Source: Anaerolineae bacterium
GTDB taxonomy: Bacteria; Chloroflexota; Anaerolineae; 4572-78; J111
Length of the DNA: 64,000 bases
Direction: 5' to 3'
Assembly: GCA_023382535.1 (NCBI GenBank)
Contig: JAHDWA010000040.1
Location: 34,053 to 98,052, forward strand
A program made the position numbers and the translations under genes. Every line of letters begins with the position of its first letter. Position 1 is the stretch's first letter. Shown here one piece after another: positions 2,492 to 64,000 of the stretch. The notes beneath the pieces are model-generated. The model made no database searches. It was not told the DNA's origin and was given only the letters and a program-made list of their open reading frames with translations.

Positions 2492-4570
2492 TTAGGGAAG
2501 CGTGGGCCAGTCAATGACTGCAGCGTTTTCCCCGCTGCTGTCGTTAACAAGGGGCACGCGCTCCAGCGTGCTGGGATCATAAAAGCCCACGTACAGCCGG
2601 TAGGGTTGGTCGGCAGCGGGCAAGGGGAGGGGCAACTGTAAATAGGCGGCGTCACGCAGCCATTCCCCTCTTTGCTGCAAGGCATGCCAAACCTCCAAAG
2701 TTAGTAACCCTTCCAACAAAAAGTGGTCGGATTGAGCGATGATTTGCCCTTGACCGTTGCGCATTTGCACAAACACTTTTAGCTGGCGAGCCGGCGTGCC
2801 AGCGGGCCGCCAGTAGAGGCCCAGGGCAAGCGTGCCATCGGGGGCAATCGTCGCAGGGTCAAGGCTGTAACCTCCCAGGTGAATCACGTTGCCAAAATTG
2901 GCGTCGAGGCTGGCGGCGGGTTCGGCGGGCAGCGGCCTGGGGTAAGGCCGGCTGAGGAAAACTTGAGTTGCGCCGGTTTGGTAGATTAAGTCCATCTGGG
3001 CCAGGATTTGCTGGGTAAAGAAAGGCTCAAAGCGCTCGAACAGGCGCGTTTGATCTACGACAAACCAAACCCGCTGGCCCTGCCCCAGGGCGACATTCAG
3101 TTCCTCGATCGAGTCAATCAGCGGGCTGCCGGTGTAGCGGTCAATGGGGGTGTCGCTCTCGTCCCCTTCAGGTAAAACCAGGGCGGTGACCTGGTTAGCG
3201 TAATAATCGCAGCGATCCAGGTAGAGATAGGCTGCCGCCGGGTGGACGGTCATCACCCGGTCGCCGGACTGCCAATTTTGGCGGACGTACGTAAAAGCGG
3301 TGTTGTAATCTCCCGTTCCCCGGGCCTGGGCCAATTCCCAGGCCGGCGGCCCCCATTGGACCACAATCAAGGCTACTCCGGCCAGGCCTGTCACCCCTCT
3401 TAACCCGGCTATAGACCAACGTGCCTGGCCCAACCGGGCCAAGAGTGCAGCCAGGCCGTCCAGCAGGCGAGCCAGACTGCCCGCGCCCAGTAACAAAAAA
3501 GCCGGCAGAGCCAGGATAAAAACGTAGCGGCTCTTGCTCCAGGTATCCGTTAACAGCGCCCCCATCTCAAAGATGACCAGCAGCCCAAACAGGGTCAGGA
3601 AGAGAAAGGCAATATCGGCGAAGGTGAAGCGTCGCCACAGCAGCCGGTACAGGGTCATCAACAAAGACAGGCCAATCAGGGGTCGCAGCCAAGCGTAGGC
3701 CGAGGTTTCAAAGAAACCAAACAGGTTGTCAAAGCGGGACCACTCCAGGCCGGGGAGAAAAAAGCCGCGCAGGAACTCCAGCCCCAGCGGAGCGGGAGTT
3801 TGGGCCGACAGGTCTTGTAAAGTATTGGTGCTGCCCACCTGTCCCCTCGCCGCAACAGCCAGGACCAAGCCCAACAGCAGCGCCGCGACGAGACCTTCTT
3901 GCCATAAGCGGGGTTGGTTGAGCCAGTCGCGGCGGTAGATTAGAGTGAAGAGGAGGAGCAGCAGCGCCAGGGGCGGCACGATCAGGAAAGTGATGGTATG
4001 TGAAAATAGGGCCAGCGCCAAGAAAGCCAGGCCCAGGTAGCGTACTTGCCGGCTGGGACGCTTGACGGTGCCCAGCAGCAGCCAGGCCGTCCCCAGCAGC
4101 ACAAACAGGTGAGCCGGGGTGTACATGCGCGCCCGGCTGCCCCAAATGATAGACCACTCGTCCAGGGCTGCCAGCGTTGCCGCCAACAGACCGGCCAGGT
4201 GCGAGTCAAACAGCCGCCGGGCGGTCAGGTAATAGGCCGCCACAGTGACGATACTAATGAGCAGGACCGGCCAGCGGGCAATCTCTTCCTTAAAATCCAC
4301 CAGGGCCAGCAGTGTCCCGGAGAGAAAGGAGAGCAGCAGACCGTGGTCGTAAAACAGGCCGGAGGGCAGGACCGGCAGGCCGCGTTGGGCGACCATGCGG
4401 GCAGCCAGCATGCTGATATATTCGTCGAAGAAATACACGGACGCCAGAAGGTAAGAGAGGCGGAGCCAAAAAGCCATGAGCAAGAACAGCCAGAGGATGG
4501 AGCGCGTCCACCCAGGCGCGGATGAGTTTGGCAGTCTGCCAGGAATAAACCCTCGCCCCGGGAGGATCAT
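2492..4570 (-). CDS. GT39-type GT-C glycosyltransferase with one C-terminal beta-sandwich module
   Basis: A 692-residue membrane protein. GT-C enzymes of this type move a sugar from a polyprenyl-phosphate carrier to an acceptor outside the membrane. After the first hydrophobic segment comes YFFDE (Asp49-Glu50), the likely catalytic acidic pair of the first external loop. About ten hydrophobic segments follow, up to residue 430. The last 140 residues form a beta-sandwich module: NFGNVIHLGGYSL, LYWRP, VFVQM, and a final GFYDPSTLERVPLVNDSSGEN. ATG at 4570 is chosen because it overlaps the preceding stop as ATGA; an open frame extends to 4732 but would run 166 bases into the neighbour. It is a tandem paralogue of 4567-6669: both share DEYISMLAA and DRVMTVHPxAAYLYL. 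Confidence 0.87.
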   Translation of the reverse strand: MILPGRGFIPGRLPNSSAPGWTRSILWLFLLMAFWLRLSYLLASVYFFDEYISMLAARMVAQRGLPVLPSGLFYDHGLLLSFLSGTLLALVDFKEEIARWPVLLISIVTVAAYYLTARRLFDSHLAGLLAATLAALDEWSIIWGSRARMYTPAHLFVLLGTAWLLLGTVKRPSRQVRYLGLAFLALALFSHTITFLIVPPLALLLLLFTLIYRRDWLNQPRLWQEGLVAALLLGLVLAVAARGQVGSTNTLQDLSAQTPAPLGLEFLRGFFLPGLEWSRFDNLFGFFETSAYAWLRPLIGLSLLMTLYRLLWRRFTFADIAFLFLTLFGLLVIFEMGALLTDTWSKSRYVFILALPAFLLLGAGSLARLLDGLAALLARLGQARWSIAGLRGVTGLAGVALIVVQWGPPAWELAQARGTGDYNTAFTYVRQNWQSGDRVMTVHPAAAYLYLDRCDYYANQVTALVLPEGDESDTPIDRYTGSPLIDSIEELNVALGQGQRVWFVVDQTRLFERFEPFFTQQILAQMDLIYQTGATQVFLSRPYPRPLPAEPAASLDANFGNVIHLGGYSLDPATIAPDGTLALGLYWRPAGTPARQLKVFVQMRNGQGQIIAQSDHFLLEGLLTLEVWHALQQRGEWLRDAAYLQLPLPLPAADQPYRLYVGFYDPSTLERVPLVNDSSGENAAVIDWPTLP

Positions 4571-6669
4571 GGGCGGGAAATGGTCTCCAAGAGGACGGCG
4601 TTCTCGCCGCTGCTGTCGGCAACCAGGGGAACCCGTTCGAGCGTGGTGGGATCGTATAGGCCGACCCAGAGGCGATAAGTGCCCGGCGGCAAGCTTTCCG
4701 GCAGGATTAAATCGGCGGTGTCGCGCAGCCATTCGCCCTGATCTTTGAGCTGGCCCATAATCCCGCCGGTCAGCAGGCCCTCGTAGATAAAATGATCAGC
4801 CTGCGCTACGGTTTGATTTTGCCCGTCGCGCAGTTGAACAAAGACTTTATAGGGCTTTCGGATTTGAGCGGTTTTAGGCCGCCAGTACAAAACCAGTTGA
4901 ACGGTTCGATCCGGGGCCAGCGCGGCCAAGTCAAGGCTATAGCCGCCTAATTCTACTAAATCGCTAAAATTCGCGTGAAGTTCGGCCAGCGGCTCGGCTG
5001 GGATGGCACGCGGGTAGGGCTGGCTCAAAAAAACGAGGACGCTGCTGTCCTGGCGCTGTACATTCATTTGAGCAAAGACCTGCTGGATAAAGAGCGGTTC
5101 ATAGCGGCTAAACAAGCGGTTGTTATCCACCACAAACCAGAGCCGGGGCGACTCAGCCAGAACCTTACTCAACCCCTCCGTTGAGTCAACCAAGGTCGAG
5201 CCGACATACCGGTCCACCAACTCTTCCGACTCATCATCGGCGAACACTCGTGCTGTGCCCTGGGTAGCGTAATAATCGGAGCGGCCCAGGTACAAATAAG
5301 CAGCGGAAGGATGGACGGTCATCACCCGGTCGCCCTCTTGCCACTGCGACTCTACCCACTTGAAAATAGTATGGTAACCGCCTGTCCCTTTGGCCAGGGC
5401 TATGCTCAGGGCTGGGCCAGCCCAATAGGCGACAATCACTAAGACAGGGAGTAGGTAGTAGAGAGTAGAGAGTAGGGGGATTCCTTGCGGTGGTCCCAAA
5501 GGGAGGCTCACCTGCCCCACCGCAGGTGCGGGTCGCTCTCGGCGGTCGGTAGTCGGTGCTCGAGATGTTAAAAGACGAAGCGATTTTTCAAACACACGGG
5601 CCAGGCCATCGGCGGCGAGGAGGAGAAAGGGGGGGTGGCAAAGAATGAACAAGTAGCGGGTTTTGCGCCAGGTTGAAGTGAGCGCCAGGCCCAATTCGGC
5701 GATGGTCAGCAAAAAAACCAAACCCAGGCAGATAACAGCCAGATCACGCCGGGTCAGCCGCCCGCGCATGGCGGCCAGGAGCGCCAGGCCAAAAGACAGG
5801 GCCGCTAAAATCAATAGGGGCCAGTATTCAGCAGCGGTGTAAACATAGATAAAATCGTCAACGCGCTGCCAACTGAAGCCGGGGTCCAAGAATTTATTAA
5901 AGACTCCCTGTAGACCACCGCCACCCCCATTTCCACCACTATCGGCGGCTGTACCGGGAGACAAAAACGGGATCTGTCCTCCCACCGCAAAAGCTACCCC
6001 AACGGCCAGCAGCACCCCGGCAACGACCAGTTCCAGGATAACCGTTTTTTGGCGGTACCAGTCAAACTTGAACTTTCGCTGGCCCAGCCACAGGCCGATC
6101 AGCAAGGCCAAACTCCAGACCGGCAGCGCCACTACCGCCACCGAATGGGCCAGAATCGCCCCGAGATAAATGGCAACTCCCAGCAGGCGGTCAAAGCGGT
6201 TAGGGCGCAGAAGAACACCTTGCAGCAGAAAATAGAACCCCAGGAGCATGAGTAAGCTGGCCAGGGCATACATGCGCATCCGAGCCGACCAGAGAATCAT
6301 TTCGGGATCAAAGGTTGCCAGAGTTAAAGCCAGTATGCCTGCGAGCGAAGTTTGCAGGGTTCGCCGGCCTACCTGATAAAAAGCAGCCAGCGCCAGCACC
6401 CCAGCCAGCAAAGAGGGCCAGCGTGCAATTTCCTCCCGGAATCCGGCCCATTTGATCAAGGGCGCCGCCAGGTAGGATAAAAGCAGACCCTGGTGATACA
6501 ACAAGCCTGACGGCAAAAAGGGCGCGCCTTTCTGGGCCGTCATCTGCGCGGCTAACATGCTGATGTATTCGTCAATGTGAAAAATACCGGCCAGTAAGTG
6601 CCCGAGACGCAGGGCAAAAGCGGCCAGCAGGAGGATTAGGATGAGAAAATAACCAAGTTTGGTTGACAT
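4567..6669 (-). CDS. GT39-type GT-C glycosyltransferase with one C-terminal beta-sandwich module
   Basis: A 700-residue protein starting MSTKLGYFLILILLLAAFAL (first membrane segment), with the acidic pair in HIDEYISMLAA (Asp33-Glu34) and REEIARWPSL shortly after, as in its tandem paralogue downstream. Hydrophobic segments run to about residue 410. A Gly-rich stretch (SGGNGGGGG) lies in an external loop near residue 235. A low-complexity segment before the last membrane helix (SLPLGPPQGIPLLSTLYYLL) is encoded partly by a 7-base repeat array at 5442-5476. The C-terminal 140 residues are the beta-sandwich module ending GLYDPTTLERVPLVADSSGEN. The stop overlaps the next start by four bases, so the two are translationally coupled. 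Confidence 0.88.
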   Translation of the reverse strand: MSTKLGYFLILILLLAAFALRLGHLLAGIFHIDEYISMLAAQMTAQKGAPFLPSGLLYHQGLLLSYLAAPLIKWAGFREEIARWPSLLAGVLALAAFYQVGRRTLQTSLAGILALTLATFDPEMILWSARMRMYALASLLMLLGFYFLLQGVLLRPNRFDRLLGVAIYLGAILAHSVAVVALPVWSLALLIGLWLGQRKFKFDWYRQKTVILELVVAGVLLAVGVAFAVGGQIPFLSPGTAADSGGNGGGGGLQGVFNKFLDPGFSWQRVDDFIYVYTAAEYWPLLILAALSFGLALLAAMRGRLTRRDLAVICLGLVFLLTIAELGLALTSTWRKTRYLFILCHPPFLLLAADGLARVFEKSLRLLTSRAPTTDRRERPAPAVGQVSLPLGPPQGIPLLSTLYYLLPVLVIVAYWAGPALSIALAKGTGGYHTIFKWVESQWQEGDRVMTVHPSAAYLYLGRSDYYATQGTARVFADDESEELVDRYVGSTLVDSTEGLSKVLAESPRLWFVVDNNRLFSRYEPLFIQQVFAQMNVQRQDSSVLVFLSQPYPRAIPAEPLAELHANFSDLVELGGYSLDLAALAPDRTVQLVLYWRPKTAQIRKPYKVFVQLRDGQNQTVAQADHFIYEGLLTGGIMGQLKDQGEWLRDTADLILPESLPPGTYRLWVGLYDPTTLERVPLVADSSGENAVLLETISRP
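5442..5476. repeat. Heptamer tandem array inside a GT-C gene
   Basis: Five 7-base units (agacagg, gagtagg, tagtaga, gagtaga, gagtagg). It is in frame within the coding region, at the linker before a membrane helix. It belongs to the agtagg family seen also at 31044, 43435, 58321, 63264 and 63814. Confidence 0.75.
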
Positions 6670-6678
6670 AGGACAATA

Positions 6679-6720
6679 ATTGTGAATTGTGAATAGTCAA
6701 TTGTGAATTGTGAATCTTCA
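6679..6720. repeat. Heptamer tandem array, intergenic
   Basis: Six 7-base units: attgtga, attgtga, atagtca, attgtga, attgtga, atcttca. An inverted copy (ttcacaa) follows near 6728. It occupies most of the gap between the methyltransferase stop (6747) and the start of the next gene (6669). Confidence 0.8.
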
Positions 6721-6746: not shown

Positions 6747-7346
6747 TCAGCCTCGTTTCCGGCCCAGGGCAATTTGCCAGGGGAAAGAGTAACCGTGCCA
6801 GACAACATCTACCACGCCGCTGACCATCCGTTTAAAACTGCGCCCGCTATAGTTGTGAAAATGTTCAGGATCGTTACCCAGGGCGGGGAGATGTTTGCCC
6901 CGCAAAAAATTGGCTCCCCGGAAAAACGGTTCATGGGGGACACTCAATAAGACGTATTCCGCCGAAACACGGGCCAGTTCGCGTAACCCAACGGTCGAAT
7001 CGGGCAGATGCTCCAACACCTCCAGGCAAATAACCAGAGGAAAGTGATTGTCGGGAAACGGCAGGTGGTGAACATCAAATTGGGTTAAGGGCGCATGATG
7101 CTCCAGATGGTCACGTCCCCAGATCAGGGCATCGGCGCTAAAATCCCCTCCTATGACCGGGTTGAGGGAGATATGCGCCTGCTGCAAATGTTTCAGCACA
7201 AAGCCTTCGCCGCAGCCGGCATCCAGCAAGCAGGCAACACTCGTCTGTCGAATGAGGGTTACGATGCGCTGATGAAATTTATCCAGCAAGACCCGCTGGA
7301 GTGGGTTTGGATTAAGATGTTTTTGACGATTGCCGTGTCGGTCCAT
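6747..7346 (-). CDS. Class I SAM-dependent methyltransferase (Methyltransf_11 type)
   Basis: A 199-residue cytoplasmic protein. SAM-binding motif I is LLDAGCGEGFVLKHL, followed by GGDFSADAL (acidic residue after strand 2), QFDVHHLPFPDNHFPLV and CLEVLEHLPD, the usual Methyltransf_11 order. It probably methylates a small molecule or a lipid-linked glycan; the substrate is unknown. ATG at 7346 is preferred: an upstream in-frame start at 7403 would overlap the GT2 gene by 35 bases and adds a Cys-rich tail unlike the family. It lies in the unit FAD enzyme, GT2, methyltransferase, GT-C, GT-C. Confidence 0.85.
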   Translation of the reverse strand: MDRHGNRQKHLNPNPLQRVLLDKFHQRIVTLIRQTSVACLLDAGCGEGFVLKHLQQAHISLNPVIGGDFSADALIWGRDHLEHHAPLTQFDVHHLPFPDNHFPLVICLEVLEHLPDSTVGLRELARVSAEYVLLSVPHEPFFRGANFLRGKHLPALGNDPEHFHNYSGRSFKRMVSGVVDVVWHGYSFPWQIALGRKRG

Positions 7347-7368
7347 AGTGAATGAGCAGTAACAAAAA

Positions 7369-8340
7369 TTAGGCCTCGTGTTGCAAAATCTGTTTGATAG
7401 CATACTCCTGCTCCGGGCGAAAGGTGAAATAACGGATCATTTCGCCCAGAAGGCCGGTAGAAAAAAGCTGAATTCCCAGGATCATGGCTAAGATGCCAAC
7501 GGTAAAGAGCGGTCGGGTGCCAATCGGCTCAACTTCGGCCAGGCCCAGGGTTCGCCGGAGCCACTCGACGGCCAGATACAATTCAATGAGGCTCCCTAAG
7601 CCAAACATAGCCAGGCCGGCCACTCCAAACAAGCGCAGGGGGTGCTTGAGATAGGTGGTGAGAAACAGGACTGTAATAAAATCTAACAAGCCGCGGATGG
7701 TCCGGCCCGCGCCGTATTTGGATACGCCGGCATGGCGGGGGTGATGCTGCACCGGCAGTTCGGCGGCGCGGAAGCCCTGGCCTACGGCTAACACCGGGAT
7801 AAAGCGGTGGAAATCACTGTATAAAGGAATTCGTTCGGTTACGGCGCGGCGATAAACTTTGAAGCCGCAGTTAAAATCGTGCAAGCGGACCCCGCTAAAG
7901 GTGGACACGCCCCAGTTAAAAATCCGCGACGGCCAGGTTTTATCAATCGGGTCCTGGCGATCATAACGCCAGGCCGCCACCAGATCAAAGCCCTCGTTCA
8001 GCCTGGCCAGCATGGCCGGAATTTCAGCCGGGTCATCTTGCAGATCGGCATCAAGGGTAATGATGATTTCGCCCCGGCTGTGGCGAAAGCCGGCCACCAG
8101 TCCTGCCGTTTTGCCAAAATTTTGCTGAAAGTGAATCACCCGGACAGCCGGGTCGGCCTGAAACAGCTCGTTTAAGATGTGCGCCGAGGCATCGGTGCTG
8201 CCATCATTAATAAAAATAATTTCATAAGGCAGACCCATGGCCGTCAAGACTTCGGTCAGTTTCTGGTGGAGCAGCTTTAAGTTACCTTCTTCATTTAACA
8301 GCGGGATAACCACAGAAATAACGGGGGAGGTGGCGGTCAC
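7369..8340 (-). CDS. GT2 polyprenyl-phosphate sugar synthase (GtrB/ArnC/DPM1-like, two C-terminal membrane helices)
   Basis: A 323-residue GT-A fold enzyme. VVIPLLNEE opens strand 1, NDGSTD (residues 45-50) binds the nucleotide, and DADLQDDP (97-104) is the metal-binding DxD region typical of the GtrB/ArnC branch. Two hydrophobic segments at about 232-255 and 275-300 anchor it in the membrane. Such enzymes transfer a sugar from a nucleotide to undecaprenyl (or dolichyl) phosphate on the cytoplasmic face, making the donor used by GT-C enzymes, which fits the surrounding genes. The start is GTG at 8340, overlapping the upstream stop as GTGA. The sugar cannot be predicted. Confidence 0.92.
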   Translation of the reverse strand: MTATSPVISVVIPLLNEEGNLKLLHQKLTEVLTAMGLPYEIIFINDGSTDASAHILNELFQADPAVRVIHFQQNFGKTAGLVAGFRHSRGEIIITLDADLQDDPAEIPAMLARLNEGFDLVAAWRYDRQDPIDKTWPSRIFNWGVSTFSGVRLHDFNCGFKVYRRAVTERIPLYSDFHRFIPVLAVGQGFRAAELPVQHHPRHAGVSKYGAGRTIRGLLDFITVLFLTTYLKHPLRLFGVAGLAMFGLGSLIELYLAVEWLRRTLGLAEVEPIGTRPLFTVGILAMILGIQLFSTGLLGEMIRYFTFRPEQEYAIKQILQHEA

Positions 8341-9827
8341 GCTCCCTCCTTCGCCTGCGGCGTTACCCCCGGAAAGGGAGACGAGGCAGGAACACGAATT
8401 TCCTCGTGATACGAGCGTTCGGTGTTGACCACCCAGAGGTCGTGTTTTTCGCCCAGGATATTTTTAACGGCCAGCATGGCGGTTAGCATGGAGTGATCTT
8501 GATTGTTATACATATGCAGGCCATTACGCCCGGTCGTTTGCAGATTTTCGATGGAGCTAAGATAGGTTTTGATCAACTCCAGATAAACTTTGTACTCGCC
8601 TGTATAAACGGGGTAGGCTTTGGGTTGGCGGAACACCACCCCATCCAGCACGTCGGCTTCCTCTACCAGGCCCAACCGGGCCAGTTCGCGCCGGCCCAGC
8701 GCAACTAAATCAGGGTCAGACATCTGCCACAGGGCATCGTCCTCATTGCAGAAATATTCGAGGCCGATGCAGGATGTGCCAGGGTCGGGCACCATGTCAG
8801 GACTCCAATTCTTGAAGTTCTGAATCCGGCCCACTTGAACTTCGGGGCTGTGAACATAAATCCAATTATCGGGAAAGAGATTATCCCGCCGCACAATCAA
8901 GGCCACCGTTAAAAAGTCACGGTAACTCAGCTTACGGGCTGCCTCGACAACCTCCGGAGCGGGCGCCGGCCTCATTTTCAAAATCAGCTCGCTCAAGGGC
9001 ATGCTGGAGATAAAGTGATCGCCGCTGGCAATCGTGGACCCGTTGGGGCCGGCTGAAACAACCTGCTTGACCCGCCGGCCGTTCATCTGCAACTCGACCA
9101 CCTCGTTCTCCAAAAAAACACGATGATTCTGAGCTTCGATCAACTCCTGGACGCGCTGCCAGAGCATGCCCGGCCCGCGCCGGGGATAGTCAAAGGCGTC
9201 AATCAACGTTTTGACCGCTTGGCTCTCGGAGTTGAAGAGGGCATTTTTGATCGCCGTCGTCAGCGAGAGGCCCCTAATGCGCTGGGCCGCCCACTCGGCC
9301 TTGATTTCGGTGCAGGGAATACCCCATACTTTTTCGGTATAGGTTTTGAAAAAAATCTGGTACAGCCGCTTGCCAAAACGATTAGAAACCCACTCTTCAA
9401 GGTTTTCCTCTTGAGGATAGGGGCGCAAACGCGCCGCAAGGTAACTCAAGCCGATGCGAATACTCTCGATCAAGCCGAGTTTTAGCAGCGCATCAAAAAA
9501 GCGAATCGGGTAGTAAAAAAACTTGTTTTTATAGTAGATGCGCGACAGCCGGGCGCGATGCAGAAAATCATCGCCCAGCACCTCGCGCCACATGGCCTCC
9601 ACTTCGGCCACCTTGGTAAAAAAGCGGTGCCCACCGATATCCACCCCGTACCCTTTGTAATTTTCGGTCCGGGCAATGCCTCCCACCAGCGGCCCCATTT
9701 CAAAGACAATCGTCTGTTTGCCCACCTTGCTCAACTGGTAGGCTGCGGTCAATCCTGCCGGTCCCGCGCCGATGATGACCACATCGGTTTTAAGTTCGAT
9801 TGGATCTTGCTTAAGTTGATCTGCCAT
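8337..9827 (-). CDS. FAD-dependent oxidoreductase (UDP-galactopyranose mutase / protoporphyrinogen oxidase-like superfamily)
   Basis: A 496-residue soluble protein. The Rossmann FAD motif VVIIGAGPAGLTAAY (Gly20, Gly22, Gly25) is followed by the acidic ribose binder in VFEMG and the GG motif GGIARTENYKGYGVDIGGHR. The length and the stretch YPIRFFDALLKLG resemble UGM-like flavoproteins found in polysaccharide loci. Those convert pyranose to furanose nucleotide sugars; related proteins desaturate or isomerise other substrates. A furanose-forming role would suit the AftB-like transferase at 25313-27373, but I did not identify the UGM catalytic residues, so this is inference. It starts the unit that continues with GT2. 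Confidence 0.8.
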   Translation of the reverse strand: MADQLKQDPIELKTDVVIIGAGPAGLTAAYQLSKVGKQTIVFEMGPLVGGIARTENYKGYGVDIGGHRFFTKVAEVEAMWREVLGDDFLHRARLSRIYYKNKFFYYPIRFFDALLKLGLIESIRIGLSYLAARLRPYPQEENLEEWVSNRFGKRLYQIFFKTYTEKVWGIPCTEIKAEWAAQRIRGLSLTTAIKNALFNSESQAVKTLIDAFDYPRRGPGMLWQRVQELIEAQNHRVFLENEVVELQMNGRRVKQVVSAGPNGSTIASGDHFISSMPLSELILKMRPAPAPEVVEAARKLSYRDFLTVALIVRRDNLFPDNWIYVHSPEVQVGRIQNFKNWSPDMVPDPGTSCIGLEYFCNEDDALWQMSDPDLVALGRRELARLGLVEEADVLDGVVFRQPKAYPVYTGEYKVYLELIKTYLSSIENLQTTGRNGLHMYNNQDHSMLTAMLAVKNILGEKHDLWVVNTERSYHEEIRVPASSPFPGVTPQAKEGA

Positions 9828-23947: not shown

Positions 23948-23963
23948 GACAGGCGAAGCTTTG

Positions 23964-25304: not shown

Positions 25305-25312
25305 GGTATTAG

Positions 25313-29751: not shown

Positions 29752-29774
29752 AAATTACTGCTTTGCAAAGATGA

Positions 29775-35242: not shown

Positions 35243-35276
35243 ACTAGATCCTTATAAACGAAAAAATGCTCAGGTT

Positions 35277-35313
35277 ACAGGTGACTGGCACTTGGAAAGT
35301 GCCAGTCACCTGT
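35277..35313. repeat. Perfect 17-bp inverted repeat (hairpin) in the leader of the carbamoyltransferase gene
   Basis: The arms at 35277-35293 and 35297-35313 are exact reverse complements (acaggtgactggcactt on the left) with a 3-base loop, gga. It lies between the stop of the small membrane protein (35322) and the carbamoyltransferase start (35242). On the minus strand a T6 run (TTTTTT) follows the stem after about 12 bases. It could be a mobile REP-like element, an attenuator, or an mRNA processing site. Confidence 0.85.
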
Positions 35314-35321
35314 AGCGGCTC

Positions 35322-35700: not shown

Positions 35701-35717
35701 ATAAACCTTCTCCTCGT

Positions 35718-36212: not shown

Positions 36213-36241
36213 GTTTTACGAACCTAACAAAAGCGCCGCTT

Positions 36242-36270
36242 ATTTTAATCTAGCCTAACTTGTCTCGCAA
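36242..36270 (-). promoter_or_regulatory. Sigma70-type promoter of the carbamoyltransferase operon, duplicated
   Basis: On the minus strand TTGCGA (36270-36265), a 17-base spacer, TAAAAT (36247-36242). Including the spacer, it differs by only two bases from 41640-41668. The predicted start is near 36235, 23 bases before the ATG at 36212. Confidence 0.65.
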
Positions 36271-36277
36271 ATCCCCT

Positions 36278-38602: not shown

Positions 38603-38608
38603 GGCAGT

Positions 38609-51617: not shown

Positions 51618-51670
51618 AAGTTTTGCTTTAGCGACAGAAGCCGGATCAGCTCCGGGCTGAGCGGCTTCGC

Positions 51671-51698
51671 TTGATTGCCGAACCCACTGATTTATAGT
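51671..51698 (+). promoter_or_regulatory. Promoter for the plus-strand GT-C at 51713
   Basis: TTGATT (51671-51676), a 16-base spacer, TATAGT (51693-51698). Its -10 box overlaps that of the opposite promoter. The predicted start near 51705 leaves at most about 16 bases of leader. Confidence 0.45.
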
Positions 51699-51719
51699 AG
51701 GATAAGCCCGGTTTGGCAA
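51691..51719 (-). promoter_or_regulatory. Promoter for the minus-strand GT-C starting near 51617
   Basis: TTGCCA (51719-51714), a 17-base spacer, TATAAA (51696-51691) on the minus strand. The -10 box shares four bases with the plus-strand -10 box, so only one polymerase could bind at a time. Confidence 0.5.
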
Positions 51720-56340: not shown

Positions 56341-56346
56341 TGGCTG

Positions 56347-56375
56347 ATTGTACCATCGGCGTAGGGAAGGAGCAA
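56347..56375 (-). promoter_or_regulatory. Promoter predicting a leaderless GT-C transcript
   Basis: TTGCTC (56375-56370), a 17-base spacer, TACAAT (56352-56347) on the minus strand. Transcription would start at about 56340, at the ATGATG of the gene. No ribosome site is present. Confidence 0.5.
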
Positions 56376-56446
56376 GCGTCATTAAAAGGTAAGACTACCA
56401 ATTTTGAAGATCAAAACGTACTAAGTTGGCAGGCCTCCTGCTTGGT

Positions 56447-59110
56447 TCAGTTCCCATCAATTATCAATCTACCAAACGACAAATTCTGCGCTTGTCCCGC
56501 CGCCAGAGAGTCAGGGAGAACCAAATCGAAGTGATAGGTGCCGGGGGGGACCTCTGGCAGCAGGTCGAGCCGCCAGGAGGTATGGATAATATCGCCGGGC
56601 TGCCATTGTGTTTCAGCCGGGTTCAGGGTTTCGGCCAGGCTTAAATCAAACCAGGCCTGGCGAGCATCCTGGCCTGCATCCATCAGGCCGACGTGCAGGC
56701 TGAAATCGGCCGGAATCGCCCGTTCGACGCGCCAGTAAAGGTCAAGGGGAATGACAGGCGAGGCGGCGACATCGCTACTTGAGCTTGTCAAAGCAAGGCG
56801 AGGCGGCGCAACGGCTCCTAAAAGCGTGAGGACATCGCCTAGAGACCGGTCAACCGGCGTGGCTGTAACCGGCAGTTGGTAAGCTGTCGCGGCTGCGGCG
56901 TGTCCCACCGTAATGATAGCCTCAGCTTCGGGCAGGGTGAAGAGGAGTTCACCGCTGGTGACGGCAGGCGCCTGGGTGTAAAAGCCAATTTGCAGCCGGT
57001 AGAGGCCGGGGGGTATATCGGGCGGCAGCATCAAAGTACCCCGCTCGGCGATAATTTCACCCTGGCGCCATTTTTCCGGCGGCGGATTTTCGGCGGTGAG
57101 GGATCGGCTCTGACCCTCGGCCCAGCGGCTGCCCTGCTTGTCCACCAGCCGAAAGAAAAAAGGCTCGTCCGGCTGTTTGCCCAGATATTCCCAGTACAGG
57201 TCAAAATCGGCGGCCTGACCGGGGATCAGCGGCCGGTCGCCGTTAACCCACTGCCAGGCCAGCAGCGAGGCGATGCCGGTATAACGCTGGTCCTGGATGT
57301 AGTGATCAATCCCCAGGCTGGGGTAAATCCAGGCGTAGTCGAGACCTTGCAGGGTAATGACCTTCTCCGGCTTAAAGCGGCTTTCAAAATAATCAAAGAT
57401 AATTTCATCCGGGAAGCGGCGCTGGGTCTGGTTGATGTAAAAGATGACATAATCCCCAGCCAGCGCTTTGCCTTTTTCTTCGGAGTAACTGATGGCCTGG
57501 CCGCGGTAGAACGGGGCAAAGGTTGACTGGTACCAACTGGCGACGCGGGTGCGAGCCGGGTCGGTGTGGTGGTTGAGATAATCAGCGGCAAGGTCCAGCC
57601 CTTCGCCCCAGCCGATCGTCACTGCCCTGGCCGCGCCTTGAATTCCGCCCAGGAGCGGGTTGAAGTAGGTGAAGTAGTAGGGGAAGTGAGGATAGACAAG
57701 AAGGGTCTGGAAGAGGATGATGAAAACGTAAAACGGAAAACGCAAAGCGTAGGGCGTGATGCGTCTTCTATTAAAGTTATATCCATGCCCAAAGAGGCAG
57801 TCGAAAATCCACACGATCCCGGCGGCGGCGATAAGATCGAACCAGGGGTACATCGGTAGAAAATAACGTTCTTGCTTTTTCTCGCCAATCGTCAGCATCA
57901 GGCCGTACCCCAGAATGAGGATGAGCATAAGCGGAAGATAGGGCAGGAGAGGACGAATGGCGGCGGCCCTGGCAGGCAGGGGTGAGGAGGAGATTTTGTT
58001 GGAAGAAGCAGGATGGGTTGGCTCATGGGCAGTACTGCCCTTTGTTCGATAGGCCAGCCAACTTATGCAGATCGCCAGCAAGCCCACCCACACCAGAGGC
58101 GAGGTGCGATAGAGCCAGGTTACGGGGTAAAAAAGCACCCCGGGATCCTGTGAAACTTGACCGAGCAAAAAGTTACCCTTGGCGTGTCCGCCGGTGGAGT
58201 ACTTGAAGCCCAACGAAAGCACAGTTTCAACAGCCTCGAGAGGGGCAACCCACATCGCCGGCCAAACGACAAAAATGCTGATTACGGCAACGACGAACCA
58301 GAGTAAACCGTCAAGGATGGTAGGGAGTAGGAAGTAGGGAATAGGGAATAGAGATTCTCCTTTCACTCCAGATTCTGCGCCTCTATTTCTTGCTTCCTTG
58401 GTGGTAAACCACAGGCCCGTCAGGGCGATAAAAGGCATCAGGTACAATGACGCACTCTTGCTGATGAAGGCCAGGCCAGCGCAGATGCCAGAAAATAACA
58501 ACCACCTGCGTCCGGCTTTCTGACCCCAATAAACGAAAGCGCCTAAAACGGAGAGAGTCATAAAGGTCGTGCTCAAAGCATCGTGATGGATAACGCGAGA
58601 GTAAGCAATGTGGAACGGATTAAGCGCAATCAGGATGGCGCCAACTATAGCTGTAGATCTTCCAAACAGGCGGCGGGCCAGCCAGTAAACGGCCACAACC
58701 CAGAGCGAAGTAATCAACACCGTCCCCAGGCGCTCCGGGGCGATGAAAGAGGCATCTACGGGATTGGTGGCGACGGCTACCACGTAATCGTGCAGCGAGC
58801 CGGGGCGGCCCGCCCCCAGCCAGCTTACCAGAAAGCCAAAGCTGCCGGTCCACATGGTGGTCACGCCGGGGTGGCCGGTGCGCAGGGTACAGGCCAAGCC
58901 CTGGGCCACAAACTGCCACTGCTCCACCACCGAGTCACATTGGTAAGCCGGGTCGGTCAAGCCGGCCAAAAAGTTGCGGGACCGGTCAATCCACAGAAAC
59001 TCGTCGGCGGTCAGAAAGCGTCCCAGGTCGGGCAGGCGGGGGATGAGGGCGAGCAGGAAGAGGGCGAGGGAAATGATGAAGTTTGAATGCAAGAGCTTTG
59101 AGCGTGTCAT
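56447..59110 (-). CDS. GT-C glycosyltransferase, WPAxW subfamily, two C-terminal beta-sandwich modules
   Basis: An 887-residue protein with the acidic pair in LTADEFLWI (Asp36-Glu37). The first external loop holds two cysteines (AYQCDSV and LACTLRT) then GHPGVTTMWTGSFG, as in 29775-32378. NPFHIAYSRVIHHDALSTT, WPAMWVAP, FLLGQVSQDPGVLFYPV, FPYYFTYFNPLLGG, GWGEGLDLAADYL and GLDYAWIYPSLG follow. The first module lies around LLAWQWVNGD/LYWEYLG and the second around LLGAVAPPRL/LYWRVER. Loops near residues 245 and 440 are coded in part by repeat arrays (58321-58355 and 57722-57763). No clear ribosome site or promoter was found before the ATG at 59110. Confidence 0.9.
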   Translation of the reverse strand: MTRSKLLHSNFIISLALFLLALIPRLPDLGRFLTADEFLWIDRSRNFLAGLTDPAYQCDSVVEQWQFVAQGLACTLRTGHPGVTTMWTGSFGFLVSWLGAGRPGSLHDYVVAVATNPVDASFIAPERLGTVLITSLWVVAVYWLARRLFGRSTAIVGAILIALNPFHIAYSRVIHHDALSTTFMTLSVLGAFVYWGQKAGRRWLLFSGICAGLAFISKSASLYLMPFIALTGLWFTTKEARNRGAESGVKGESLFPIPYFLLPTILDGLLWFVVAVISIFVVWPAMWVAPLEAVETVLSLGFKYSTGGHAKGNFLLGQVSQDPGVLFYPVTWLYRTSPLVWVGLLAICISWLAYRTKGSTAHEPTHPASSNKISSSPLPARAAAIRPLLPYLPLMLILILGYGLMLTIGEKKQERYFLPMYPWFDLIAAAGIVWIFDCLFGHGYNFNRRRITPYALRFPFYVFIILFQTLLVYPHFPYYFTYFNPLLGGIQGAARAVTIGWGEGLDLAADYLNHHTDPARTRVASWYQSTFAPFYRGQAISYSEEKGKALAGDYVIFYINQTQRRFPDEIIFDYFESRFKPEKVITLQGLDYAWIYPSLGIDHYIQDQRYTGIASLLAWQWVNGDRPLIPGQAADFDLYWEYLGKQPDEPFFFRLVDKQGSRWAEGQSRSLTAENPPPEKWRQGEIIAERGTLMLPPDIPPGLYRLQIGFYTQAPAVTSGELLFTLPEAEAIITVGHAAAATAYQLPVTATPVDRSLGDVLTLLGAVAPPRLALTSSSSDVAASPVIPLDLYWRVERAIPADFSLHVGLMDAGQDARQAWFDLSLAETLNPAETQWQPGDIIHTSWRLDLLPEVPPGTYHFDLVLPDSLAAGQAQNLSFGRLIIDGN
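57722..57763. repeat. Heptamer tandem array (gaaaacg/aaagcg family)
   Basis: Units gaaaacg, taaaacg, gaaaacg, caaagcg, tagggcg, tgatgcg. They code for RRRITPYALRFPFYVFI before the helix leading to FPYYFTYFN. Confidence 0.8.
58321..58355. repeat. Heptamer tandem array (tagggaa family)
   Basis: Units tagggag, taggaag, tagggaa, tagggaa, tagagat. They code for SLFPIPYFLLPTIL at a loop/helix border. Confidence 0.8.
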
Positions 59111-59213
59111 GAGAAATAAGAGATTAAGCGGTAAGCTTTGAAGATCGTTGAAACACGAAAACCTCGAAACATAAGAATCTCACGAGAGGCTTGCGAGATA
59201 CATGGTTAACACC

Positions 59214-59615
59214 TCAATTGACAAACCGTTTAATTTGCAGGCGAGATGCACCAAAGTTAAGCAGCAAGCCCAGCTTAAAGTTTGAGGCTTTGACATAGTT
59301 GAGGGCTTGAACGTAATCTTGAGGATCAAGTTCACTTTTGGCTTTGATTTCAACCATCACCTGACCCGCTACAAAATCAACGCGGCGGGTATCAATTTGT
59401 TTACCTTTGTAATAAATCGGCATTTTAACTTCGCGGTCGTAACTGACTCTGCTTCTATCAAATTCCAAAGCCAAGGCACGCTGGTAAACAATTTCCCGGA
59501 ATCCAGCCCCTAATGTTTTATGTACCTCGATAGCGCAGCGGATAATCTCATTTGTTCCATCGTTGAAATCATAATTTTGGGTTGAATAAACCGCATCGGG
59601 TTCATTGAGTTCCAT
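59214..59615 (-). CDS. GxxExxY protein (PDDEXK_3-like)
   Basis: A 133-residue soluble protein. The name-giving motif appears as GAGFREIVYQRAL near residue 36. VDFVAGQVMVEIKAKSEL supplies the Asp ... Glu-x-Lys pattern of a PDDEXK-type nuclease core, and the C-terminus KLGLLLNFGASRLQIKRFVN is characteristic. The biological role of these proteins is not established. AGGA lies seven bases before the ATG. It is the only gene from 2.5 kb onward with no plausible glycan role. Both flanks carry gaaacac/cacga-rich short repeats, suggesting it arrived as a separate unit between two GT-C genes. Confidence 0.9.
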   Translation of the reverse strand: MELNEPDAVYSTQNYDFNDGTNEIIRCAIEVHKTLGAGFREIVYQRALALEFDRSRVSYDREVKMPIYYKGKQIDTRRVDFVAGQVMVEIKAKSELDPQDYVQALNYVKASNFKLGLLLNFGASRLQIKRFVN

Positions 59616-59742
59616 TTTCTGTTCCTAACTTGATTGCGACCTTAAAAAGAAACACAAAAATCACGAAGCGGGAGAAAGGCTCGAAACGTCTTTGCCATCC
59701 TTTCTTTTTTCGTGACCTTCATATTTTCGTGCCTCTCGTGTT
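59616..59742. repeat. CACGA/TTTCGTG-rich short repeats flanking the GxxExxY gene
   Basis: gaaacac (59649-59655) and cacgaag lie on one side of this gap, and tttcgtg (59708-59714, 59725-59731) with tcgtgtttc on the other, as inverted partners. Across the gene, 59150-59170 repeats gaaacac, gaaaacc, tcgaaac. The arms are degenerate and no exact boundary or target duplication is visible. Confidence 0.45.
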
Positions 59743-62343
59743 TCACTTCCGAATAAACGTCCAGGGCAATGTCCAGTGGTCCTGGCCGTCGGCAAGAGTC
59801 AGGCGCTGGCCGGTTTCAGGACGGTAAAGCCCGACGATAACTTTGTAATACCCCGGCGGGAAGTCGGGCGGAATGGCAACCAGGTATTCGTCCACCACCA
59901 CTTCCCCTTTGACCCAGCGGCTGGTCGGCCAATCGCCCTTGAGCGGCGGCGTGTCTACACCGGCCAGGCGTTCATCCGTCTCGGCAGTGAGGATTTGAAC
60001 AAACACGGTGTAATCAGGCAGTTGGGCGCTTTGGGCTTCCCAGGCGAGGGTCACGCCGAGATAATCGGTGGTGGGTTCAAATTGATAGCCGGCCAGCGCA
60101 ATTTGTCCGTCAAAAACAACATCTTTGACGCGGTTTACATCCGCCGGGATCTGGAAGTTGCGCAGTTCGATATTGCCCAATAGTTGACCATCAACCCAAA
60201 GAGCATACGGTCCGCGGGCCAGGCTGGCCGGCAAGAGCAGGCGATGGTGGCTGATAATGACATCGGGGGCCAACACCATCCGGTTGCCTTCAGCCTGGGC
60301 CACAGCGGGGATTTGGCTCATTTGACTCTGGCTTGCCTCTTCTTCCGTCAATGGAGCTGTCAAACTAACCATAGCCGGGCCGGAGGGGAGAGGTCTGTCA
60401 GCCTGCCAGAGCACATCCACGTCCAGGGTCTGGCCGATGTGGCCGTACAGGGTGAGGGGGCGGAAGGCAATGGGTGGGGGGTTGGAGGTTAGGCTGCCGT
60501 TTTCGGCGTGGGGGCCAGGAGGGACAGTTTGAAGGGGAGGACCGCCATAGACGTCGGCGTAATGGATGCCGTTCAGTTTAACGGAGAAGAGGGACCCTGT
60601 CTGCTCAAAGTAGCGAATAAACGCCGGGGACGGTTCACCGGACTGGACTTGCTTCAGGTAAAGGACAAGGTAGTCCCGATCAGTTTTCGTAACGGCGGAG
60701 AGATTCCCCTCGAAGAAGGGAGCCACGGTTGAAGCGTAGGCTGTCCCCACCCGGCTGCCCCGGAAAGTACTTTCACGCTGCAAAAAGCGGCCCACCTGAT
60801 CCAACCCTTCGCCCCAGCCGATTTTGACCAGGTGAGGGGCGGAAAAGGACCCTCCGAGGAGTGGGTTAAAATAAGTAAAGTAGTAAGGGGCATAAGGCAG
60901 GAGGATGATAAACGCGGCCATGAGAAGCAAAACGGCGAACATGAGAGGTGTGGAGCGTGGAGTCCGAAGTGGGGAAGGCGATATTTTGTTCTCTGCTTCT
61001 CTGCTCCCCCCGCCTGACGCTTCGCGCCGTCCCCTGCGGTCTACAACTCGATATAGTTCAAGCCACCCATAGGCAGCGATAATCGCCAGGGGAGGAAAAA
61101 CAGGCAGAATGTAGCGCGGGCTGCGTTTGTCGCTGGCGGTCATAAAGAGGGTGAAAAGGAGGGCAAAAGCGATGAGCCAAAAGAAGGGTGAAACGACGAT
61201 GCGCTGAAGCGAGGACGCGATGAAGCTTGCTTCTTTGTGCCATCCGGCCGATTTATTGGTTCGTGGATACATTGGTTCGCCGCTTCGCTGCTTGACCGCA
61301 AAAGTTACGGCCAGGCCGGCCCCCACCATAACCAGCGGGCTGAGTTTAAAACCGCCATTGACTAAATAGTAAAGCGGGCCAAGGTCGGGCGTACGCCAAT
61401 AACCTTCTTCGCTGGCTTCTTCTTCATCGGTGGCGGAGAGGAAGGCATTCTGGAACACGGCTACCGGACGGCCCACCGGCTCTACCCATGCCGCCGGCCA
61501 GAAGGCGACAAAGGTGAGATAAGCTACAACCAACCAGACCAGGAAACGAGAAAGTTGGTGAGAAAAGCGCGGCTCTGAGAGAACAAAAACCAGACCGGCA
61601 AAAGGGATGAGAAAAAGCGCCGGCGCTTTGGATAGAAAGGCCAGCCCGGCAGCTATCCCTGACAGAACAGTTAGCACGAAGGGGGAGGAAGGGCGACCTA
61701 ACGCTGAGGCGGACACCTCCTCTGCTCCCCTGCTCCTCTGCTCCTCTGCTGCTTTTACGGCCAACAACAACAGCAGAAGCGAGAGGCTCATAAAAACCAT
61801 CACCGGGGCATCGTGGCCGAGGATGCGCGCGAGAGCAACCGGGTGCGGGTCGAGGGCGATAAAGGCCGCGGCCAGAAAAGCCAGGGTGGGATTGAACAGG
61901 CGGCTTAGTAAAAGAAAAAAGGCGACGACGCTGAGAGAGGTTAAAAGGACCATCGGCCAGCGGGCTGCCGCCAGAATATCTAACTCGGTCCGAAATTCGG
62001 GCAGTGAGGTCAGCCAGGCGGTGAAAGGCTGCTGGAGAGCTGTCTGGTGCAATTGATAATAGACGGCCAGGCCCAGGCTGCCTAACCAGGTGGTGGTCAC
62101 AGCCGGGGTCAGGTTGACGCTGGTAGCCGGAAAATCGCCGCGCAGCAGGGCCACCAGAAATTGGGCCGAACGGTAAACCCATTTGGCTTCATCGGCGGTA
62201 ACAAAGCGCTGCAGTTCGTAAGCGCGAGGGAGGAGGGCCAAAAGAAAAAGGCTGAGGCTAAGGCTGAGTCGAGAGGTGAGTAGAGTAGAAAGTGAAAGGG
62301 TAAACGATTTTTCGACTTGATTGATACTTTTACGGGCTGTCAT
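59743..62343 (-). CDS. GT-C glycosyltransferase, WPAxW subfamily, two C-terminal beta-sandwich modules
   Basis: An 866-residue protein with the acidic pair in VTADEAKWV (Asp51-Glu52). NLTPAVTTTWLGSLG, DPHPVALARILGHDAPVM, WPAAWVEP, APYYFTYFNPLLGG, GWGEGLDQVGRFL and GIHYADVYGGP show subfamily membership. The first module is around LYGHIGQ/VLWQADR and the second around LAGYQFEPTTD/LAWEAQSA, ending GLYRPETGQRLTL. Three loops are coded by repeat arrays (60948-60975, 61256-61295 and 61717-61748), including EEQRSRGAEEV. The promoter at 62356-62384 predicts a leader of only about six bases. Confidence 0.9.
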   Translation of the reverse strand: MTARKSINQVEKSFTLSLSTLLTSRLSLSLSLFLLALLPRAYELQRFVTADEAKWVYRSAQFLVALLRGDFPATSVNLTPAVTTTWLGSLGLAVYYQLHQTALQQPFTAWLTSLPEFRTELDILAAARWPMVLLTSLSVVAFFLLLSRLFNPTLAFLAAAFIALDPHPVALARILGHDAPVMVFMSLSLLLLLLAVKAAEEQRSRGAEEVSASALGRPSSPFVLTVLSGIAAGLAFLSKAPALFLIPFAGLVFVLSEPRFSHQLSRFLVWLVVAYLTFVAFWPAAWVEPVGRPVAVFQNAFLSATDEEEASEEGYWRTPDLGPLYYLVNGGFKLSPLVMVGAGLAVTFAVKQRSGEPMYPRTNKSAGWHKEASFIASSLQRIVVSPFFWLIAFALLFTLFMTASDKRSPRYILPVFPPLAIIAAYGWLELYRVVDRRGRREASGGGSREAENKISPSPLRTPRSTPLMFAVLLLMAAFIILLPYAPYYFTYFNPLLGGSFSAPHLVKIGWGEGLDQVGRFLQRESTFRGSRVGTAYASTVAPFFEGNLSAVTKTDRDYLVLYLKQVQSGEPSPAFIRYFEQTGSLFSVKLNGIHYADVYGGPPLQTVPPGPHAENGSLTSNPPPIAFRPLTLYGHIGQTLDVDVLWQADRPLPSGPAMVSLTAPLTEEEASQSQMSQIPAVAQAEGNRMVLAPDVIISHHRLLLPASLARGPYALWVDGQLLGNIELRNFQIPADVNRVKDVVFDGQIALAGYQFEPTTDYLGVTLAWEAQSAQLPDYTVFVQILTAETDERLAGVDTPPLKGDWPTSRWVKGEVVVDEYLVAIPPDFPPGYYKVIVGLYRPETGQRLTLADGQDHWTLPWTFIRK
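60948..60975. repeat. Heptamer tandem array (gcgtgga family)
   Basis: Units gtgtgga, gcgtgga, gtccgaa, gtgggga. They code for PLRTPRSTPLMF just before the helix leading to APYYFTYFN. A related gtgtggagcgtggaa occurs near 63305. Confidence 0.65.
61256..61295. repeat. Octamer tandem array (ttggttcg/cgcttcg family)
   Basis: Units ttggttcg, tggataca, ttggttcg, ccgcttcg, ctgcttga. They code for part of a cytoplasmic loop containing VKQRSGEPMYPRTNKSA. Confidence 0.55.
61717..61748. repeat. Octamer tandem array (ctcctctg), four units
   Basis: Units ctcctctg, ctcccctg, ctcctctg, ctcctctg in exact register. They code for the charged loop EEQRSRGAEEV on the minus strand. Confidence 0.85.
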
Positions 62344-62408: not shown

Positions 62409-64000
62409 TCATTTGATGCTGACTTGAGCCAACGGTACTTCGGCTGAGCCAGCCGCTACCAGCGGGGCGAGTGTGTCCGGGTGATAGATAACTACTGTAA
62501 GGGTGTAATTGCCAGGGGTCGCGTTGGCGGGGACAGGCAGCAGATAGTACTCATTGACTGGCTCGGGCGGCCATAGGGATGTACCCTGATGGTAGTTGTG
62601 CAGGAGAATTCGATCTTTTTGGGCCAGACGTTCGCCCGCGGGGCCGGTCAAGCGGAGCGAGACTTTGTAATCCACCTCCATTTTGGCCAGCGGGCTTAGA
62701 GTGAGGGCCAGCGGCAGCCAGCCCCCGCGAGCCGCCGATGCCGGCACAAACGCTGCGTCAAGCCGGAGCAGGTTGTCAAAATTAGCACCAACCGGCTGGT
62801 TGATCGCCGGCAGGGTAAAGATGGTCTGCGGGCCAGGCAAGGCGTATGTTTCCACATCGTAAACCGGGAAAGACTCACGCCCTTGAAAATGGGCGCCTGT
62901 TTCGAGCAAGTAACTAAGGATTTCCCTGGCGTCGGCCTCGCGATGTTTGTCGCCGGTCCAGCGCACCACCCGCACCTGCTCTTTGCCGTCAGCCGCCTGG
63001 GCCAGTAAATGGGCGGCGTTCTGCTCGTCAACGAGGAGATAAGGGGCGGGCCGGCCCAGCAGGTAATCAAGCGTGTAATGGCGCGCTTCTTCCCCGGCCC
63101 GAATATCCATCGGCAGGATAAAGGCCACACCAGGCGGTGCGTGGGCGATGTCGCCGGCTAAGCGCACAGCATAGAGGTCAAACGGCAGGGTAAAATCAAC
63201 CGAGCCAGGCCAGCGGACGAAGTAGTTGGTGTAGGTTTGGAGGCCCAGGAGCAGGTAGAAGATAGTGGGTAGTAGGTAGTAGGTAGTAGGTAGTAAGGGA
63301 ATAAAGTGTGGAGCGTGGAAGCGAAGACGCAAGACGTTGACCAGAGTCGAGGTAATCGTTGTAAGGCCGATAGCAACAAAAGCGTAGGTGGGTACAATCG
63401 TTCCAATGAGGCGAAGATGGTGGGGTGCGCCTTCGGGGGCGAGAATAGCCGGAAGGAGCATAACCACCCACCAGCAGAGGAGGAAAAGGTGAGGAGAGGG
63501 GGAAGATGGAGGATTGGAAGGCTGGAAGGCTGGGAAGAGGGAGCGATAGAGGCTGGTGAGCAATCCCAGACAGAAGAAGGGAACGAGGAGTGGCGGTAGG
63601 GCCGGTTGCCCGGGAAGGTTGACCAGCGGGTTGGGGTCGCCGTGCAGGCCAAAGAAGGTGCCCAGAGTGGTGATGAGGGTGCGCCAGGCCGTGCCCAGTA
63701 AGTCTCCCTGATTCCAGGCAGGGTTAAAGATAGATACGCTGGTCGAACGGGCAATGAAATCGGCGGGGTTGAAGCTGAAATAAAGGACGAGGGGGAGGAG
63801 GAAAAGAGCAAGGAGTAGGTAGTAGGTAGTAAGTAGTCGGGGGAAGAGAGGTGGGTTCGTTTTTGGCCGAAACTTCTCCAGCGAGGCAAATTGTTGCCTT
63901 ATTTTTGCGATAAGCCAGTGGAGTAGCCAGTAGAGCAGAGGAACAAAGGGCAGCAGGCGGGCGGCCAGGTAGCTGTAAATCGCCAGAGCGGTGAAGAGGG
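62409..64000 (-). CDS. GT-C glycosyltransferase with one beta-sandwich module, N-terminus beyond the window
   Basis: About 530 C-terminal residues are present. The frame is open to the right edge, so the real start lies outside; an internal TTG at 63563 is not a credible start because conserved sequence continues upstream of it. The visible core contains YSYLAARLLPFVPLLYWLL, FNPADFIARSTSVSIFNP and LHGDPNPLVNLPGQPALPPL, a set I recognise from Chloroflexota GT39-type proteins, then APHHLRLIG and the final helix. The external part leads to a module starting NFDNLLRLDAAF, with VSLRLTGPAGERLAQKD and VVIYHPDTLAPL. Two heptamer arrays lie in it. The catalytic loop is not visible. Confidence 0.82.
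   Translation of the reverse strand, partial: LFTALAIYSYLAARLLPFVPLLYWLLHWLIAKIRQQFASLEKFRPKTNPPLFPRLLTTYYLLLALFLLPLVLYFSFNPADFIARSTSVSIFNPAWNQGDLLGTAWRTLITTLGTFFGLHGDPNPLVNLPGQPALPPLLVPFFCLGLLTSLYRSLFPAFQPSNPPSSPSPHLFLLCWWVVMLLPAILAPEGAPHHLRLIGTIVPTYAFVAIGLTTITSTLVNVLRLRFHAPHFIPLLPTTYYLLPTIFYLLLGLQTYTNYFVRWPGSVDFTLPFDLYAVRLAGDIAHAPPGVAFILPMDIRAGEEARHYTLDYLLGRPAPYLLVDEQNAAHLLAQAADGKEQVRVVRWTGDKHREADAREILSYLLETGAHFQGRESFPVYDVETYALPGPQTIFTLPAINQPVGANFDNLLRLDAAFVPASAARGGWLPLALTLSPLAKMEVDYKVSLRLTGPAGERLAQKDRILLHNYHQGTSLWPPEPVNEYYLLPVPANATPGNYTLTVVIYHPDTLAPLVAAGSAEVPLAQVSIK
63264..63298. repeat. Heptamer tandem array (agtaggt), five units
   Basis: Units agtgggt, agtaggt (three copies), agtaagg. 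They code for LLPTTYYLLPTIFYLLL, merging into a membrane helix. Confidence 0.9.
63814..63841. repeat. Heptamer tandem array (agtaggt), four units
   Basis: Units agtaggt, agtaggt, agtaagt, agtcggg. They code for RLLTTYYLL at the start of a helix. Same family as 63264-63298 in the same gene. Confidence 0.8.

Follow-up and report, generated by a model that had tools for sequence, protein, structure and literature searches.

A dense locus of GT-C glycosyltransferases with C-terminal β-sandwich domains in an Anaerolineae bacterium and its possible role in extracytoplasmic glycan assembly

In mycobacterial arabinan and lipoarabinomannan (LAM) assembly, several GT-C glycosyltransferases (EmbA/B/C, AftA-D) work on polyprenyl-phosphate sugars outside the membrane, and some of them carry C-terminal carbohydrate-binding modules (CBMs), as presented in parts of PMC3044687 and PMC11127046. 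According to the same passages, the CBMs of EmbC and AftD bind the acceptor polysaccharide. GtrABS-type/GT136 systems likewise pair a polyprenyl-phosphate-sugar synthase with a GT-C that bears an immunoglobulin-like (Ig-like) CBM; this module binds its O-antigen, yet is dispensable under the conditions tested (sections of PMC11127046). Chloroflexota are considered monoderm, without the genes for lipopolysaccharide (LPS) synthesis and for BAM. In some of them the envelope is multilayered, with layers suggested to be polysaccharide or protein, and recent tomograms of two members look diderm-like (portions of PMC13319060). Single PMT_2 genes are named in the appendix of PMC8756737, and among the papers listed by literature searches, judged by titles and abstract openings, none is on GT-C clusters in Chloroflexota. 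The subject here is such a cluster in an Anaerolineae bacterium, carried on a stretch of 64,000 nucleotides (GenBank assembly GCA_023382535.1, contig JAHDWA010000040.1, positions 34,053 to 98,052; hereafter the window). We lean toward reading the locus as a modular assembly line with which a Chloroflexota bacterium builds one or a few extracytoplasmic surface glycans.

Between position 2492 and the right edge of the window lie 28 main genes, 19 of which encode GT-C-type membrane proteins. Together these 19 occupy 46,164 nt, or 75% of 2492-64000, and 16 of the 27 gaps between neighboring genes are shorter than 25 bp or are overlaps. The original prediction of 19 GT-Cs packed into about 61 kb is borne out, with the open reading frames (ORFs) as it gave them. 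PMT_2 (PF13231) is found by Pfam in 16 of the 19 at E ≤ 0.01; 14 matches exceed the curated cut-off, while 4567-6669 and, just barely, 49602-51755 fall below it. PMT (PF02366) exceeds its cut-off in 8 of the 19. The three proteins without a Pfam match are 21704-23947, which has the Asp-Glu pair and the shared C-terminal domain (both described below) and pairs with 39400-41610 in the tree (SH-aLRT 94); the AftB-like 25313-27373; and 62409-63998, which is cut by the window edge and whose orthologue in the closely related isolate H5_CFX7 (Anaerolineales bacterium, hereafter G001) is 752 aa long. The earlier description of eighteen proteins as GT39-type is, by sequence profile, right at superfamily level, and it is no proof of protein mannosyltransferase activity.

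As had also been proposed, the Asp-Glu pair of the first external loop is present in all but three of the GT-Cs (16/19, from the aligned loops of the 18 complete proteins), and the loop Asp is conserved in 18/18 complete proteins. The exceptions are the Asp-Asp of 25313-27373, the Asp-Gly of 51713-54094 and the cut gene, which has Asp-Glu in its orthologues from G001 and from a second relative, G007. The Asp-Gly recurs in the orthologues of 51713-54094 in G001 and in a third genome, G002 (the start of the orthologue in a fourth, G010, is mis-called and the motif was not read there). From work on PMT and ArnT, we take the Asp(-Glu) of this loop to be the catalytic site. A GT-C fold is predicted for the one modelled member, 15486-18467. 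The model's best fold match is yeast Pmt2, from a complex that includes a peptide acceptor, and AftA, EmbB/C and AftD are also among the matches.

The original prediction missed a C-terminal domain (CTD) shared by these proteins, as well as the other enzymes among them. The CTD is an Ig-like β-sandwich that belongs to no Pfam family and occurs in one to three C-terminal copies in 18 of the 19 GT-Cs; that of 39400-41610, folded alone, is likewise predicted to be a β-sandwich. When CTDs were compared with known CBM and Wzt_C families, Wzt_C was matched by 3 of the 22 scanned (best E 1.9e-4), and in both full-length proteins that match it the score is below the Pfam cut-off. Comparison with PDB by sequence gave nothing significant (best E 0.043). 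The CBMs of EmbC and AftD are not among the 50 fold matches listed for the CTD, an absence that excludes nothing. The CTD looks able to hold sugar chains.

The locus is also present in G001, where the carbamoyltransferase is 96% identical at the protein level and the DNA is about 84-93% identical to the window, in the same order. Reciprocal best hits of the window GT-Cs number 19/19 in G001, 9 in G002:C4, 7 in G007:C296 and 6 in G010:C7. Apart from pairs taken up below, the distant orthologues are 39-72% identical, compared with about 23-47% between window paralogues. Read from gene order and orthology, the window interleaves two older modules (A and B) with an accessory block at 21704-41610. 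Module A is retained in G002:C4 in order and strand (genes of the window are on the minus strand unless marked +): 12946-15483 (two CTDs), 15486-18467 (three), 18715-21690 (+, three), 41701-44718 (two), 44737-47280 (two; PMT_2 and PMT), 47461-49605 (one, weak), 49602-51755 (one) and 51713-54094 (+, one, weak). All of these match PMT_2, 49602-51755 below the cut-off as noted above. On the side of module B, G007:C296 has a six-gene block, one GT4 plus five GT-Cs, that is colinear with the right end of the G001 locus, the right block of the window being 56447-59110 (two CTDs; PMT_2 and PMT), 59743-62343 (two; PMT_2) and 62409-63998 (one). The same contig also has, in the same order with other genes interspersed, the trio of SAM-dependent methyltransferase (6747-7403), GT2 (7369-8340) and FAD oxidoreductase of the PRK07208 family (8337-9827), followed by 9888-12698 (PMT_2, one CTD). 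In G010:C7 several orthologues, among them that of 54088-56382 (PMT_2, one CTD), form one cluster with a different transcription order.

The tree comprises 95 GT-C domains, 17 of them from the window (all but the AftB-like protein and the cut gene); it includes no more than 24 G001 paralogues that lie elsewhere in that genome, and some of its deep joins are on long branches. In it, 12 of the 17 window GT-Cs fall in clades with G002, G007 or G010 orthologues (SH-aLRT 94-100). Ten of the 17 belong to a group (support 99) whose 39 rows all come from clusters or clumps, a pattern that points to local duplications in the distant past and later divergence. By their placement in the tree and their partly retained order, the window GT-C genes are not recent copies.

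The density of GT-C genes was measured in G001. Its locus contains 21 GT-Cs in about 71 kb (C5:479651-550410) and extends the cluster some 5 kb past the right edge of the window, with two further GT-Cs and a GT4. Genome-wide there are 78 PMT_2 matches (77 loci), 18 of them at C5:481034-547873, and the next largest clump comprises 5 loci; such genes are thus not equally dense throughout this genome. Uniform placement of the 77 loci gave a maximum of 7 in 67 kb in 5000 draws, compared with the 18 observed. Because sugar genes clump, this is a weak null, and the comparison with the next largest clump is the better one. The richness of the genome in GT-Cs is itself ordinary. G001 and all 60 relatives match PMT_2, with at least 10 to at least 51 matches each when the best 50 candidates per genome are scored. 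Full searches give 77 matches in G002, 75 in G007 and 70 in G010, and smaller GT-C clusters are present in all three; the largest PMT_2 runs are of 9 loci in G002 and 9 in G010 (the latter by hand count). Nineteen genomes that are not named as Chloroflexota have 1-23 matches each. A large number of GT-Cs per genome is normal for this lineage. Two blocks of G001 are missing from the window, C5:469849-479569 and C5:533065-537946; the G001-only blocks encode LuxR/MalT-type and AAA-LuxR regulators, a DUF4331 protein and an NmrA-like protein.

The genes between the GT-Cs encode two GT2s, the FAD enzyme, the methyltransferase, three SGNH proteins, a carbamoyltransferase fusion and a small membrane protein. 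Both GT2s are candidate polyprenyl-phosphate-sugar synthases: 7369-8340 is ArnC/PgfS-like, with two C-terminal transmembrane (TM) helices (177 bits against the ArnC model, under its cut-off of 529), and 38609-39403 is AglJ-like, without a TM helix (122 bits, under the AglJ cut-off of 325). The SGNH/GDSL-family protein 23961-25304 (+) has the Ser and His motifs and is absent from the G001 locus. The other two SGNH proteins are membrane-anchored, 27370-29751 having the Ser, Asn and Asp/His motifs and 36278-38602 being 50% identical to it. At 32381-35242 a NodU-type O-carbamoyltransferase is fused to Trm112-like and methyltransferase domains. Most of 76 loci that match it do so only over about residues 1-620, near full-length matches occurring in L062 and L067 besides L001. 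The accessory block (module C) was not found in 75 of these 76 loci (L002-L076, flanks up to 10 kb, E ≤ 1e-25, 40% identity); the scan returned a stretch of L038 that is 41% identical to GT2 7369-8340 and stretches of L052 (42%) and L063 (49%) identical at those levels to GT2 38609-39403. The small membrane protein, 35718-36212, has four TM helices and a DUF6789 match below cut-off. The longest gaps between main genes, 35243-35717 (475 bp) and 59111-59742 (632 bp), are without an Rfam match over the gathering score, as is the window as a whole. The remaining GT-Cs, each with one CTD, are the PMT_2 protein 2492-4732, whose start is probably over-called (it overlaps the next gene by 166 bp), its tree sister 4567-6669, 21704-23947 (+), 29775-32378 (PMT_2 and PMT) and 39400-41610 (PMT_2).

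The AftB-like protein named in the original prediction, 25313-27373, is the GT-C in which no CTD was found. It matches mycobacterial AftB (PDB 9dlf) with E 1.3e-19, and its Asp-Asp aligns in register with AftB's own. Against the NCBIfam AftB equivalog model it scores 76 bits, far under the cut-off of 1050, and it is therefore described as AftB-like (GT89-like) and not as AftB. The gene was rejected as a general feature of such genomes, only 9 of 61 matching at E ≤ 1e-20; close matches among the 61 are confined to G001 (91%), G059 (49%) and G036 (40%). A DprE1-type donor route was also rejected as evidence: PF04030 gave one borderline G001 match (25.9 bits, cut-off 23.1) and one G002 match under the cut-off in the four genomes searched.

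In the glycan assembly that we favor, cytoplasmic GT2s (7369-8340, 38609-39403 and probably others elsewhere) would load polyprenyl phosphate with single sugars, and a transporter, for which no gene was seen in the window, would turn the loaded lipid to the outside. Each GT-C would then move one particular sugar onto the growing surface glycan, with the first-loop Asp(-Glu) as its putative catalytic site, while its one to three CTDs may grip the acceptor chain, as do the CBMs of EmbC, AftD and GT136. The SGNH proteins and the carbamoyltransferase/methyltransferase fusion might decorate the glycan with acyl, carbamoyl and methyl groups or make sugars so modified. We infer which kind of donor is used, which way the sugar is transferred, that each linkage has its own enzyme, that the CTDs bind the acceptor, what the accessory enzymes do, and that the product is a surface polysaccharide or the glycan of a glycoprotein. 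Since the GT136 CBM is dispensable under the conditions tested, the acceptor-holding role of the CTD calls for caution. A glycan role for such clusters is supported by gene content in G007 C213, a separate cluster of CTD-bearing GT-Cs that includes two sugar aminotransferases and an epimerase of the GDP-mannose-dehydratase type.

Several observations weigh against this assembly line. The G007 C213 cluster and that of the window are not orthologous, the GT-C best hits of the former being 28-32% identical. Two of the seven G007 pairs (4567 and 47461) are window-edge artefacts, their true partners being two G001 GT-Cs just past the edge (58% and 66%), and 39400 and its G002 partner share only 31% identity, their join having a support of just 88. 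The fold match of the CTD to Wzt is tied by Z score with GH2 sandwiches, NPC2 and arrestins, and the top Foldseek match is yeast NPC2, a sterol carrier; the predicted fold is a common one and proves no glycan binding. Among the 30 window ORFs scanned with Pfam there is no flippase, polymerase, ligase or polysaccharide exporter family (no GtrA, MATE, SMR or Wzx match for a flippase, the rest of the genome not having been searched), and 19 GT-Cs would seem to call for more than two GT2s; the locus is therefore not self-contained. Furthermore, PF04030 revealed no convincing DprE1-type donor gene for the AftB-like enzyme in the four genomes.

Protein O-glycosylation, in which PMT-like GT-Cs would each attach a sugar to secreted surface proteins or elongate one already there, is a serious rival to the glycan assembly line, even if we judge it rather unlikely. 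It draws on the resemblance of the modelled GT-C to yeast Pmt2 in its peptide-acceptor complex and on the GT-C cluster of G007:C296, which includes three large LTD/Fn3-associated/CotH surface-protein genes. These CotH-kinase-type genes (L121:8972-11983, L122:1802-4717 and L122:4858-7827) encode possible glycosylation targets. A very improbable explanation, already disfavored, is lineage-specific amplification with little function, that is, redundant or decaying GT-C copies piled up in a large genome. PMT_2 is indeed abundant in G001 and all 60 relatives, and the two closest genomes are not the same in gene content. The G001 orthologue of 41701-44718 is also split between two overlapping frames (C5:518125-521132), a frameshift or an assembly error. 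However, the 17 GT-Cs for which dN/dS relative to G001 was measured (all except 41701, split in G001, and the cut 62409) have values of 0.10-0.28, which indicates purifying selection. The loop Asp is retained in all 18 complete proteins, and the orthologues of distant genomes, mostly closer than the paralogues and partly colinear, also speak against mere accumulation.

The cluster might instead serve antigenic diversity, with the coat varied, for instance in defense against phages, by exchanging or switching GT-C genes; this we regard as quite unlikely. Most neighbors have a dS of 0.2-0.4 relative to G001 (0.63 in 56447), and two genes depart from this range: 15486-18467 has a dS of 0.089, and 51713-54094 has a dS of 1.78 and groups with G002 instead of G001. 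Such outliers are the pattern that allele exchange would produce, and alleles may have been exchanged; the divergence of 51713-54094 suggests gene replacement within the locus. The gain and loss of accessory genes would also fit, as would degenerate 7-bp tandem arrays (6678-6715, 11631-11665, 31042-31091, 54981-55014, 55696-55725 and 63253-63295), of which five lie within GT-C coding sequence. Nevertheless, the intragenic arrays that can be aligned to G001 differ by 0, 3, 6 or 18 nt, always in frame (31042-31091 is the same, with net differences of 3 nt in 63253-63295 and 6 nt in 11631-11665; the alignment does not span 54981-55014), and phase variation by these arrays is not supported. No recombinase match was found among the 30 ORFs (Pfam). 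The sole long inverted pair (13840-13872 / 20359-20391, 33 nt, 79% complementary) lies in two paralogous GT-C genes on opposite strands and is probably just conserved coding sequence. The core order is retained in G002, as is the six-gene block in G007. Given the conserved orthologues and order, the purifying selection, the lack of a recombinase and the in-frame arrays, a fixed assembly line fits better than a combinatorial one. The interpretation in the original prediction is partly supported; the "combinatorial" character that it gave the system is not (12/17 old orthologues, order kept, purifying selection, no recombinase in the 30 ORFs).

If the glycan assembly reading is true, this locus and its relatives become named candidates for making a Chloroflexota envelope layer, the CTD becomes a probe for the sugars of that layer, and the enzymes should be useful for learning how GT-Cs choose their acceptors. 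To our knowledge, which does not rest on a census, the locus would then be among the largest extracytoplasmic glycosyltransferase sets in one bacterial locus. More broadly, and only tentatively, Chloroflexota could own distinct envelope-glycan machinery, in which ancient GT-C modules fused to tandem new glycan-reading domains build one large branched heteroglycan residue by residue outside the membrane; this would be the chemically undefined outer layer of a multilayered, LPS-free envelope.

Set against the known systems, the locus is linked to arabinan/LAM assembly by its one AftB-like gene and by the AftA, EmbB/C and AftD hits that the modelled GT-C gives on fold comparison. It differs in having 19-21 GT-Cs per locus, 16 of the 19 in the window matching PMT_2, in the tandem CTDs of some of them, and in the lack of a convincing DprE1 homologue by PF04030 in four genomes. 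GtrABS-type/GT136 systems have one GT-C and a dedicated flippase, whereas here there are many GT-Cs, two GT2s and no flippase recognized in the 30 ORFs. With Pmt1/2/4 (GT39) and ArnT (GT83) the locus shares the catalytic-domain fold, as predicted for the modelled member, and the Asp-Glu of the first external loop; unlike in these enzymes, there is no MIR domain match (Pfam) in the window proteins, which have CTDs instead. The CTD also differs from the C-terminal carbohydrate-binding domain of Wzt, from O-antigen ABC transporters, in being joined to GT-Cs and not to an ABC ATPase; the sequence match between the two is below the Pfam cut-off where a bit score is given, GH2 sandwiches are equally close, and NPC2 ranks higher by Foldseek. 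Fold and chemistry are therefore of known kinds, and what is new to us is the scale of the locus, its modular conservation and the tandem CTDs.

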